The position numbers and the translations under genes were made by a program. Below the pieces are notes generated by a model, which was not told the origin of the DNA, ran no database searches, and saw nothing but the letters and a program-made list of their open reading frames with translations. Below, piece by piece: positions 30,909-44,506 of a stretch of 64,000 bases of DNA. The DNA comes from Isoetes taiwanensis (lineage: Eukaryota > Streptophyta > Lycopodiopsida > Isoetales > Isoetaceae). The stretch spans positions 4,179,069 to 4,243,068 of the forward strand of contig JAJEKV010000081.1 in assembly GCA_021234155.1 (NCBI GenBank), in the 5' to 3' direction. Each line of letters begins with the position of its first letter. The first letter of the stretch is position 1.

Positions 30909-31082
30909 ACACACTCACCCCAAGTTTTGGTCCACTGTTGAAAAGTATAGTTTTTTTTAGGTCCACATGTTCTTTATTCAGAGATTTCAAAAAAACCTAC
31001 ATGTAGATCTGTGGAGGTGTGGTTTTACTAGCTAACGGTGTTGTTTTTTAAGTGGACAAGGAACGTCCACTGTTATTTTTTT

Positions 31083-31396
31083 AAGGAGCTGTGGTTTTTG
31101 TTTTTTTTAGGACGTGTGGTTTTTTAAGGAGGTATGTTTTTTGTTAAAAGAACTGTGGTTTTTTCTTTTGAGGTAGTGGTATTTTTAAGGTGGTGTAGTT
31201 TTTGGAGATGTGGTTTATAAGTAAGTGTAGTTTTTTTTTTAAGGAGCCGTGGTCTTTGTTTTTTAGGACGTGTGGTTTTTTAAGGAGGTATGTTTTTTGT
31301 TAAAGGAATTGTGGTTTTTTCTTTTGAGGTGGTGATGTTTCTAAGGAGGTGTAGTATTTGGAGGTGCGGTTTATAAATAAGTGTAGTTTTTAGGAG
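31083..31396. repeat. T-rich subterminal tandem repeat, 158-bp period
   Basis: Two copies (31,083 and 31,241) share AAGGAGC-GTGG, TAGGACGTGTGGTTTTTTAA, GGAGGTATGTTTTTTGTTAA and TAAGTGTAGTTTTT. Many shorter GTGGTTTTT words occur in between. It lies just inside the left TIR of the 13.6-kb element, where subterminal binding repeats would be expected. Confidence 0.85.
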
Positions 31397-31673
31397 GTTT
31401 TTTCTAAAGGATGTAATTTTAAGGTTCTTTATAGCTAATTTTGTAAGCATCATTATACAATCATTGCACTGCTCCCATCCATATGACACCCCATAAAGTA
31501 TTCATGTTGTCATTACATGCCATGTGTAAAAATGCAATATCTCATCTATTGTCCCTCTACCCCTCATGCTTATAGAAAACTAGAATGCAAAGGCATTATG
31601 AAGATCCCAATGAATTGAACTGAATTTAACTTTAACGTCCATGGGGACCAACAAGCCTATCGATCCGAGGATC

Positions 31674-31917
31674 GAGAGAGAGAGAGAGAGAGAGAGAGAG
31701 AGAGAGAGAGAGAGAGAGAGAGAGAGAGAGAGAGAGAGAGAGAGAGAGAGAGAGAGAGAGAGAGTGTTGGGGGAGGGGAGGGATGGATGTGTGTGTGTGT
31801 GTGTGCATGTGTGTGTGTGTGTGTGTGTGTGTGTGTGTGTGTGTGTGTGTGTGTGTGTGAGAGAGAGAGAGAGAGAGAGAGAGAGAGAGAGAGAGAGAGA
31901 GAGAGAGAGAGAGAGAG
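31674..31917. repeat. Compound (GA)n-(GT)n-(GA)n microsatellite
   Basis: (GA)n at 31,674-31,764 (about 45 units), a 24-base spacer, (GT)n at about 31,789-31,859 with one CA interruption, then (GA)n at 31,859-31,917. The open frames across it are an artefact of the dinucleotide repeat. Confidence 0.98.
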
Positions 31918-32270
31918 TTTTGCTTTTTATGCCTCAAATCCATTTTTTGATCATATGGACATGATCTCGAGTCCCATTCGGGCCTTATGGGAGTTGAAAG
32001 CACACAATAAAAACCTTATAGAAATCGGATTCAAAAATTATTTGCTTTGGTTTTTCTTCACGGTTCATTGAGAGAAAAATATATCCATTTCTCTCAATCA
32101 CATTAGTTCCAAATCAAGCCAAATTTCTTTCCACATGTTCCTACAAGTTCCACGATAGTCATTTCAAATATCGCCCAAAAATGTTAAAAAAACACTCAAG
32201 ATATCATCATTTGAGTGTACATATCTTTTTTCTGCCATAGGAATGTGCAATGGACAAATTTTACATCCCA

Positions 32271-33810
32271 CTTGGCTTCAAACATGCCACCTAGGCTCAA
32301 ACATGCCAAGGTGGCTCAAACATGCCACCAAGGTGGCTCAAACATACCAAGGTGGCTCAAACAAGCCACCAAGGTGGCTCAATATGCCAAGGTGGCTTCA
32401 ACATGCCACGCTGGGCTCTAACATGCCATCTTGGGGCTCCAACATGCCAAGGTGGTGCAAACATGCCACCTAGGCTCCACCATGCCACCTAGGCTCCAAC
32501 ATGCCAAGGTGGCTCTGGCATGCCACCTAGGCTCCAACATGCCAAGGTGGCTCACAACATGCCACCTAGGCTTAAATATGCCAAGGTGGCTCAACACATG
32601 CCACCTAGGCTCCAACATGCCCTTTGTGGCTCTAACATGCCACCTAGGCTCAAACATGCCAAGGTGGCTCAAACATCGCGTGGGCTCCAACATGCCACCT
32701 AGGCTCCAATATGCCAAAGTGGCTCAAACATGCCACCCCTAGGCTCCGGCATGACAAGGTGGCTCAAACATGCCAATGTGCTTCAACATGCCACCCTAGG
32801 CCAACATGCCGCGTGGGCTCTAACATGCCACCTAGGCTCCAACATGCCACCTAGGCTCCAACATGCCATCCCAGGCTCCAACGTGCCATCTAGGCTCCAA
32901 CATGCCAAGGTGTCTCAAACATGCCACGTGGGCTCCAACATGCCAAGGTGGCTGTAACATGCCACCTAGGCTCAAACATGCCAAGGTGGCTCCAACATGC
33001 CACCTAGGCTCCAACATGACAAAATGGCTCAAACATGCCACCTGGCTCCAGCGTGCTCAAACATGTCAATGGGCTCCAACATGCCACCTATGCTCCAACT
33101 TGCCAAGGTGGCTCAAATATGCCCGCGTGGGCTCCAACATGCCACCCCTAGGCTCCCACATGCCAAGGTGGCTCAAACATGCCACCTAGGCTCCCACATG
33201 CCAAGGTGGCTCAAACATGCCACCTCGGCTCAAACATGCCATGTAGGCTCATTTAGGCTCCAACATGCCAAGGTGGTTCACCCACGAGGGCTCCAACGTG
33301 CCTTCTAGGCTCCAACATGCCAAGGTGGCTCAAACATGCCACCTAGGCTAAAAAATGCCAAGGTGGCTCCAACATGCCACCTAGGCTCCAACATGCTCAA
33401 ACATGCCACGTGGGCTCCAACATGCCACCTATGCTCCAACATGCCAAGGTGGCTCAGGCATGCCAAGATAGCTCAAACATGCCACCTAGGCTCCAACATG
33501 ACAAGGTGGCTCAAACATGCCAAGTTGGCTCCAACATGCCACCTGGGCAGCAACATGCCATCTAGGCTCCAACATGCCACCTAGGCTCCAACATGCCAAG
33601 GTGGCTCAAACATGCCACGTGGACTCCAACATGCAACGTGGGCTCCAACATGCTAAGGTGGCTCAAACATGCCACGCGGGCTCCAACATGTTACATGCCA
33701 GCTAGGCTCCAACATCCCACGCGGGCTCTAACATGCCACCTAGGCTCCAACATGCCAAGGTGGCTCAGGCATGCCACCTAGGCTCAAGCATGCCACCTAG
33801 GCACTCCAAG
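32271..33810. repeat. Palindromic dimer satellite, 19-20-bp half units
   Basis: About 75-80 half units alternate between ACATGCCACCTAGGCTCCA and ACATGCCAAGGTGGCTCAA types. GCCACC in one half can pair with GGTGGC in the next, so the array can fold into serial hairpins. Variant halves (CACGTGGGCTCC, CACCCTAGG) are scattered. The lack of stop codons leaves frames open on both strands, but they shift frequently and no single frame survives the array. It lies inside the 13.6-kb TIR element and abuts the foldback arms. Confidence 0.95.
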
Positions 33811-42465: not shown

Positions 42466-42633
42466 ATGGTCAACAACCAATGGCTCACAATAAAAGCCTT
42501 TTTTTGTGCGTGTGGTGCATAATGGTCAACAACCAATGGCTCACAACAAAAGCCCTTTTTTTGTCGTGTGGTGCATAATGGTCAACAACCAATGGCTCAC
42601 AACAAAGCCCTTTTTTGTGTGTGGTGTATAATG
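42466..42633. repeat. Three tandem copies, 56-bp period
   Basis: ATGGTCAACAACCAATGGCT begins each copy at 42,466, 42,522 and 42,578. Each is followed by a T-run and a GTGTGGTGCATA end. Copies differ by one to three bases. Confidence 0.95.
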
Positions 42634-43685
42634 GGCACATGAAGGGCTTGAAGGGGCGCATGTAGTGCGTTTCCCGAGAACAACATTTCTTATCATAACT
42701 TTTGATCCGAAGCTACATTTTGAGATGATTTTTATTATGCGTTGGAAAGCTCTCTCCCAGATCTTTTTTGATAGTGTATGATATGGATATGTTTGGTTAA
42801 GTTATCTATGCTAAAACAGCAATTTTTCGGCCGGGTTTGGTAGGCTTTCACATCCTACCGGTGATTATCTGAGGATTACGCTATTGGATATTGTTTTATG
42901 GCTCATTCGAATGAAGCTTGCAAAAATTACCATGCATTTTTTAGATTTTGAGGCGCTTATTAAGCAAATTCCAAGGCTTCTAGATCCTTTTGCTAACAAG
43001 CGAAAAAGTTTCCCACTTTGGTTTCTCACCACAAGAATCCATGAAGGCCAAAGGTTCAACTGTTAAATTCAGTTGAAAAATGTTTGTGTATGGGTGTTGC
43101 AAACTTTATGACTTTCAGAATAATGGGATCAATCTGCTCTATCTTTATGGTAACTTTTACTTATGTTCTATTTGTTTTATTGTGATGGATGAAAGCCTCA
43201 AATGAATTCTAGTTTTTTTCTGGTTTGAATTCTAAAATTTTTGTCACACTGGGGGGTGTCCCTAAGGCCCCGAAGGGGCCAAAAATTTTTTTTTGCAACA
43301 CAAACCATTAACATCCAACATATAAAAATTAAATCCCCCAACGCATAACAACCAACACATAACTACCATTGACATTAATTAACACAACCATTGGGTCCAA
43401 CACATTTAAATTAAAATCCCCCTTAAACCCCCTTTGGTTTGGGTGCATATTCACACGGGGGGTGACGTTGTGAATAGCCATTTTCTATAGCAAAAGCAAA
43501 TGGATCAAAAATAATTGTACCATTAAAGACATTGCTGAAGGGAAACTTAGAACTTGAACTTAGAATTTTCATTGCAATCTAACATTATTATGCTTTATGG
43601 ATTTGTTTGGGTTCGATTCCCAAAAGGGTTTCCTAAAATAAACAAGAAAAATACGTCTTCATGATATTTAATATTTAATAATAAA
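42634..43685. other. Gene-free stretch inside the 13.6-kb element
   Basis: A perfect inverted motif GGCCCCGAAGGGGCC is at about 43,267-43,281. A tRNA T-arm-like motif (TTGGG TTCGATT CCCAA) is at 43,607-43,623, without other tRNA arms. No gene is seen. Confidence 0.5.
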
Positions 43686-43687
43686 TA

Positions 43688-44470
43688 ATGCTTTTTTTAT
43701 TTGAAAAGTATGCCACGTGTCAATATTTAATTAGTTAATAATATTGATTTTTCTTCTATAAAAAATATACCACGTGCTGATATTTAATTGGTTAATAACA
43801 ATGCTTTTTTATTTAAAATTTTTGCCACGTGTTGATATTTTATGGGTTAAAAGGCATATTAGAAACAACACCTAATTATTTCTATAGGTTAATAATAATG
43901 CTTTTCTACATGTCCTTACTTTTGGAAAACAATAGCTAGGAGCATTAAAAACGATAGCTAGATTTAAGTAACACATGTCCTACTTTCTTAAATAACATGT
44001 ACTTTTTTTTTAAAAACCACCTTACTTTGACATTGTACTTTCATTTTTCACATGCAGTAATATCTAAATCTACACATGTTATTTTGAAGGAAAAAATACA
44101 TGGTTTAGCTAAAAACTACAAGTAGAAAAAAAAAAACACAGATAGAAAAAAAGAAAAAAGAACTGTCCTTTCCAGTTTTCCACGTGTACTAATATTTAAA
44201 TTTACAAGTGTTATTTAGAAAACAAACAACGCGTGGCTCCTCCAAAAAGCAACAGTCAAGGAAAAACCACATGTTGATAAAATTTGCTAAAAACAATGGT
44301 AAAAAAAAACACGTTGACCAGAAAACAAAAGGTACGAAAAAAACCGATTGGGATTTTTTGCCAAAACCACTTTCTCTCTTTGTGCAAATCCGGGATAAAG
44401 CGGGCCACGTGGACTTTTTGGGGCCATTTTGGTGTTGTTTTGGCATAAAACAACACTTCCGGTGACAAGT
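43688..44470. repeat. Right subterminal region with CCACGTG repeats
   Basis: Three diverged copies of a 54-58-bp unit with CCACGTG, GATATTTAATTGGTTAATAA and a T-run (CCACGTG words at 43,713, 43,770 and 43,825). Related TTCCACGTGTACTAATATTT is at about 44,179. AAAAACCAC words (43,995, 44,264) are the complement of the GTGGTTTTT words at the left end of the same element, consistent with matching subterminal regions. Confidence 0.7.
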
Positions 44471-44506
44471 AAAACAACTGTGGACCAAAAATTGGGGTCA
44501 GTGTGT

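Follow-up and report, generated by a model that had tools for sequence, protein, structure and literature searches.

To which class of transposon does the 13,596-bp insertion belong that occupies positions 30910-44505 of the 64,000-nucleotide stretch of Isoetes taiwanensis DNA analysed here (contig JAJEKV010000081.1; the window), with the boundaries CACACT(C/G)ACCCC...GGGGT(G/C)AGTGTG? A preliminary description of the window had seen a large element with terminal inverted repeats (TIRs), of unknown superfamily, and had proposed it as a candidate for an undescribed non-autonomous family. In our analysis it very probably belongs to a large, high-copy family of cut-and-paste transposons, non-autonomous as far as its copies were read, which works like CACTA (En/Spm) elements. 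The superfamily is thus less obscure than first stated, because a 3-bp target-site duplication of varied sequence, TIRs of 31 bp and inward-facing subterminal repeats all speak for a mechanism of CACTA type.

Family copies and target-site duplications

Both ends of the window copy were searched in the host's own assembly of 1,658,258,908 bases in 1110 contigs, in which the window was placed on contig C1091. The left end yielded 967 first-look candidates and the right end 1106; 40 were scored in each case, and all 40 matched at at least 95% and at least 92%, respectively. CACACTSACCCC was taken as the end sequence bounding elements of the family. An exact left-type pattern gave 654 genome matches and one permitting either end type 704, with no match to the reversed-pattern control in either case; the first rows listed for the latter pattern are of the right type except three. 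With ends that recur hundreds of times in the genome, the proposal of a large non-autonomous family is supported.

For pairing, the two end lists (about 100 ends per exact pattern among the matches listed) were followed in parallel by eye in the order of the contigs; of the convergent pairs up to 25 kb apart the first 20 were taken, and 20 bases were fetched per end. All 20 pairs are flanked by a perfect 3-bp duplication and none matches at 4 bp, compared with 8/380 for mis-paired flanks. Sixteen different triplets occur across the 20 pairs (e.g. GTC, CCA, ACG and CTT; TTA in two), and the pair lengths are 8.6-14.3 kb in 18, with the other two at 21.0 and 22.3 kb. The family thereby passed the check that the preliminary description had set for itself, namely facing ends in multiple copies with consistent duplications. 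As all 20 duplications are perfect, many copies would seem to be of no great age.

Four further copies have a perfect 3-bp duplication as well (TAA in L026, CTG, CCA and GTA). The left-end type, given by the bases after CACACTCACCCC, is GGT in all 20 pairs and AAG (the type of the window copy), GAG, GCG and GCG in these four, and the 3-bp size is therefore not confined to one end type. In the list of left ends, GGT is found in most rows and GCG and others in fewer, with AAG in the window copy, which suggests subfamilies. Two right ends stand about 510 bases apart at C323:390768-391282, with elements on their outer sides. L020 and L021 were taken with a shorter flank, and L021 was detected by BLAST, not by the pattern scan.

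Element boundaries and host retrotransposon

The inverted repeat reported to bracket the insertion (30909-30940 and 44475-44506, 29/32 identical) is real and far beyond chance: among 2000 dinucleotide-shuffled versions of the 100-bp stretches at either end, the best 32-base match reached 24, and the expectation for inverted pairs of this strength is ~5e-5 per 64 kb. With simple sequence removed, all other listed inverted repeats of 29/32 strength in the window lie within 32294-40614, i.e. inside the element. The boundaries called exact in the preliminary description are nevertheless off by one base per side. The copies read have CACACT at their start while the base just outside it varies, and the 3-bp duplications adjoin CACACT and AGTGTG exactly; these two observations place the ends at 30910 and 44505. 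The TIR is consequently an imperfect one of 31 bp, with 26-28 identical positions in four copies. The two end types differ at base 7, which is C in all 20 left-end loci (CACACTC) and G in all 8 right-end loci (CACACTG), a contrast that is partly built into the 20 pairs, as a left-type list was matched with a mostly right-type list.

Taken alone, the window copy leaves its duplication ambiguous among TCTAA/TATAA, TAA/TAT and CTA/ATA. Placed by the other copies, the flanking triplets are TAA and TAT, not CTA and ATA as had been stated; the expectation of an at most imperfect 3-bp duplication held, with two of three bases matching.

The flanks are the two halves of one Ty3/gypsy integrase, which upholds the view of a discrete insertion. 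The further argument, that deletion of the insertion fuses the gypsy frame perfectly, does not hold as proof of the boundaries. Joined at the boundaries of the preliminary description, the flanks give a single integrase reading carrying several stops, but several alternative boundaries likewise keep the frame, and the frame stays broken when the 13,599 bp of the element and one 3-bp duplication are taken out. The fusion is therefore a coincidence of the earlier boundaries, and either a small indel lies nearby or the frame was lost by decay. The host retrotransposon is old (Kimura two-parameter (K2P) distance between its long terminal repeats (LTRs) ~0.41), and the window copy is an old copy of the family. 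Just inside 50668, after the 5' LTR, stands a sequence which we take to resemble a tRNA-Met primer site.

Subterminal repeats

The inverted subterminal motifs mentioned in the preliminary description were recovered as GTGGTTT, mirrored at both ends. With the window copy included, 118 motifs point inward and none outward within the first 520 bp of 21 left ends, and the corresponding counts at 9 right ends are 31 and 0; over all 30 ends this amounts to 149 against 0, though the ends are related to each other and the counts hence not independent. In the window copy by itself the motif remains conspicuous once the 156-bp tandem duplication is left out, a value as high coming up in 9 of 2000 shuffles. 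The inward arrangement corresponds to the layout of CACTA subterminal repeats given in excerpts of PMC2613891.

Search for a transposase

As had been noted from the letters, no transposase is recognisable: the six frames of the window copy gave no Pfam transposase and a lone chance-level match to CDC45 (E 0.51), a negative of low power for decayed genes, as the host gypsy controls gave just a weak Integrase_H2C2 match (44507-45506, E 0.0069) and no Pfam match (46000-48999). The open reading frames (ORFs) 34104-34697 and 41130-41555 had no Pfam match and no convincing PDB match (best E 0.026). Ten ORFs from the 45 longest in the 20 left-end loci were run against Pfam and contained no Tnp2, the matches being to a histone and, weakly, to a microtubule-binding domain. 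Several others outside these ten look by eye like long interspersed nuclear element (LINE) or copia proteins. Two family loci hold open frames without a Pfam match at E 0.1: one of 768 amino acids at L028:2382-4685, by eye presumably a reverse transcriptase resembling Penelope-like elements, and two at L013:5123-7809, which by eye we take to be hAT-like.

Tnp2 (Transposase_21) genes are abundant in the genome, with 167 matches from the 150 of 2311 candidates that were scored, and none was seen between family ends in the part of the family read. Among the Transposase_21 matches listed, none lies by eye on the contigs of the 20 paired elements. Two such genes stand 1.6 and 2.6 kb beyond a copy's end, i.e. 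outside it, and the 6 kb around each contain no further end (fewest mismatches 8/26).

The abundance of Transposase_21 genes in the genome speaks for a CACTA-type mechanism. That no Tnp2 was seen in the copies examined weighs against it, as do three properties of the copies: the termini, whose boundary is set by the duplications, begin with CACAC, not CACTA or CACTG; the window copy's own duplication matches at just two of three bases; and the right end is missing within 15-17 kb in five of the eight copies followed (L012, L013, L015, L018, L019, L025, L026, L027), so that interruption or truncation may be common among the copies.

Classification and alternatives

According to excerpts of PMC2613891 and PMC10741241, CACTA (En/Spm) elements have short imperfect TIRs, a 3-bp duplication and reiterated subterminal motifs at both ends; those of PMC10741241 state the termini as CACTA/CACTG. 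The soybean CACTA element Tgmt* measures 20.5 kb. With elements such as Tgmt* the family shares a TIR in the range typical of CACTA (mostly <50 bp), a 3-bp duplication (20/20 pairs and four more copies; two of three bases in the window copy), subterminal motifs at both ends and a size above 10 kb. It differs from them in its ends, CACACT(C/G)ACCCC, which had rightly been called non-canonical, in its particular TIR of 31 bp and motif GTGGTTT, in that no transposase was found, and in the satellite and kilobase palindromes inside. Two features keep the family from being classed as CACTA in the strict sense: its termini are CACAC instead of CACTA/CACTG, and Tnp2 is carried by none of the copies seen.

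The end pattern had no match in viral and prokaryote collections. Open-access full text, judged by title and start of abstract, held no relevant account of the end sequences, with Repbase and other repeat libraries outside this scope; nothing found there speaks against the word 'undescribed', which has been weakly tested in this way. The terms 'CACTA' and 'DNA transposon' are absent from the main text of the Isoetes taiwanensis genome paper (PMC8566536).

The CACAC ends break the CACTA/CACTG rule as worded in excerpts of PMC10741241, and no Tnp2 gene was found between family ends in the part read, both of which would suit a new or different superfamily with 3-bp duplications and an unrelated transposase, its resemblance to CACTA being convergent. 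We regard this as decidedly unlikely, since TIR length, the 3-bp duplication of unfixed sequence, the inverted subterminal repeats and the large size all fit CACTA, and CACT stands two bases inside each end.

Other cut-and-paste TIR elements of plants are hAT, Mutator, PIF/Harbinger and Ginger. PIF/Harbinger elements prefer TAA/TTA target sites, and both the 3-bp duplication and the TAA on one side of the window copy and in L026 would agree with such an element; it is very improbable given 16 triplets across 20 pairs, mostly not TAA/TTA (TTA in two). hAT elements have an 8-bp duplication, whereas no pair matches even at 4 bp, and Mutator elements have duplications of at least 9 bp and usually long TIRs, in contrast to the 3 bp and 31 bp found here. 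Excerpts of PMC10741241 give Ginger TG...CA ends, a 4-6 bp duplication and TIRs of 40-270 bp, and the family lies outside all three. An element with a 5-bp duplication (Ginger or Transib-like), which the window copy by itself would suggest through TCTAA/TATAA at 30910/44505, with four of five bases matching and a consistent frame, has negligible probability, as an equally good match occurs in 13% of random position pairs and the reading is refuted by the 20 paired copies, none of which matches at 4 or 5 bp.

Under the CACTA-type mechanism, a Tnp2/Transposase_21 transposase acting in trans would cut at the CACAC ends and insert the element with a 3-bp stagger, and an accessory TnpA-like protein would draw the two ends together by binding to the GTGGTTT arrays; the interior, with its satellite array and long palindromes, would be non-coding cargo, dispensable for movement, in which the palindromes would grow by inverted duplication. 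To our knowledge, transposons of the host's plant group are little described, and the present family, whose boundaries are precise and whose ends number in the hundreds, is a well-bounded one from a quillwort. CACTA-like movement would tolerate termini which the CACTA/CACTG rule misses, and such families may therefore go unannotated.

Interior of the element

The interior of the window copy holds a satellite, palindromes and nested insertions (Table 1), and also carries microsatellites. The satellite is present in 14 of the 20 other left-end loci, each viewed over about the first 10 kb, and neither satellite nor core is present in the remaining six within that range; 'core' matches in this comparison include satellite matches and were used for the satellite count and long alignments only. 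Three other copies were read end to end: L019 and L027 contain one palindrome each (self-match 79% and 92%), and L026 has no inverted pair, yet one palindrome arm. In a tree of the arms, the two arms of a palindrome group together in window B and in L027 (support 0.97 each) and not in window A or L019; this grouping of arm sequences suggests that in some copies the arms were homogenised locally or newly formed by inverted duplication. A genome search with an arm of palindrome B gave 5130 first-look candidates, and among the 46 arm matches listed two fall by eye within elements of the tested set of 20, one on C291 and one on C232.

The folded RNA of the palindromes is predicted to be very stable. 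Coding constraint was not apparent in the arms, with no consistent third-position excess over the four stretches tested (third positions slightly higher in one, 0.243 vs 0.197 and 0.217, and lowest in two). The strand bias of G-U vs A-C mismatches was not significant in the hairpins of palindromes A and B (p 0.06 and 0.30), and the p of 0.044 in the cross-comparison of B-left and C was discounted as one of eight tests. The hAT-like miniature inverted-repeat transposable element (MITE) at 38839-39416 landed in the element later.

Tetris of Drosophila virilis (PMC4079207) is an example of a foldback element. Foldback elements combine long inverted repeats with tandem repeats, and the interior is like them in this respect; unlike in foldback elements, the long inverted repeats are internal, and it is the 31-bp TIRs that delimit the mobile unit. 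It is possible, if doubtful, that a foldback-type element of separate origin makes up the palindrome-satellite core (33804-38819), having inserted into the transposon and then been spread by it: the arm candidates are several times the exact-end number, and may lie outside the family or reflect several arms per copy, and the six loci without satellite or core in the first 10 kb also agree with this origin. No bracketing duplication was found by eye, however, and other copies of the family contain the satellite together with the arm.

For the CACTA-type family as a whole, a further proposal is rather unlikely in its full extent: a lineage that descends from CACTA and may be confined to lycophytes, its cut site shifted two bases outward, would exist almost wholly as hundreds of ~10-kb non-coding elements, their palindromes copied and homogenised in place, and could seed satellite and, if transcribed, kilobase hairpins feeding small-RNA silencing of the elements. 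The palindrome-satellite interior offers a natural series for how transposons seed satellites and hairpins.

Table 1. Features of the element and of its host retrotransposon, in window coordinates
Feature	Position	Strand	Remarks
Host Ty3/gypsy retrotransposon, both LTRs, interrupted by the element	29328..51520	-	LTRs ~29328-30180 and ~50668-51520; K2P ~0.41
Left target-site duplication TAA	30907..30909	.	3-bp size from 20/20 paired copies; here 2/3 matching
Left TIR, CACACTCACCCC type	30910..30940	+	28/31 vs right end; 654 exact left-type genome matches
Left subterminal zone, GTGGTTT motifs	31019..31319	+	Motif in 21/21 left ends; overlaps 156-bp tandem duplication 31072-31391
19-bp satellite array, ~80 units	32278..33802	+	Shorter stretches 36243-36322 (inverted), 37764-38007
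Outer arm	33804..34158	+	Inverted partner 38493-38819
Palindrome A, ~1.1-kb arms, 83% identical	34038..36237	.	Shares its unit with palindrome B
Palindrome B, ~0.67-kb arms, 93% identical	36423..37757	.	Second copy of palindrome A's unit
Extra half-arm C of palindrome unit	38008..38492	-	Same unit as palindromes A and B
hAT-like MITE, 578 bp, TIR CAGGGAAAAA	38839..39416	.	Perfect 8-bp duplication TATAGAAC; nested
Short foldback hairpin, arms 97% identical, 11-bp loop	40365..40613	.	No duplication noticed by eye
Right subterminal zone, GTGGTTT inverted	44012..44371	-	Motif in 9/9 right ends
Right TIR, CACACTGACCCC type	44475..44505	-	Right-end search and exact-pattern search
Right target-site duplication TAT (eroded)	44506..44508	.	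Same comparison as left; one base lost

Other features of the window

Long repeats that are 79-85% identical and lie ~1.5-3.2 kb apart occupy 59311-63983. An ORF at 5967-6449 contains DUF7869 (E 2.4e-23) and looks by eye transposon-derived, and the ORF at 9788-10633 is leucine-rich-repeat receptor-like.

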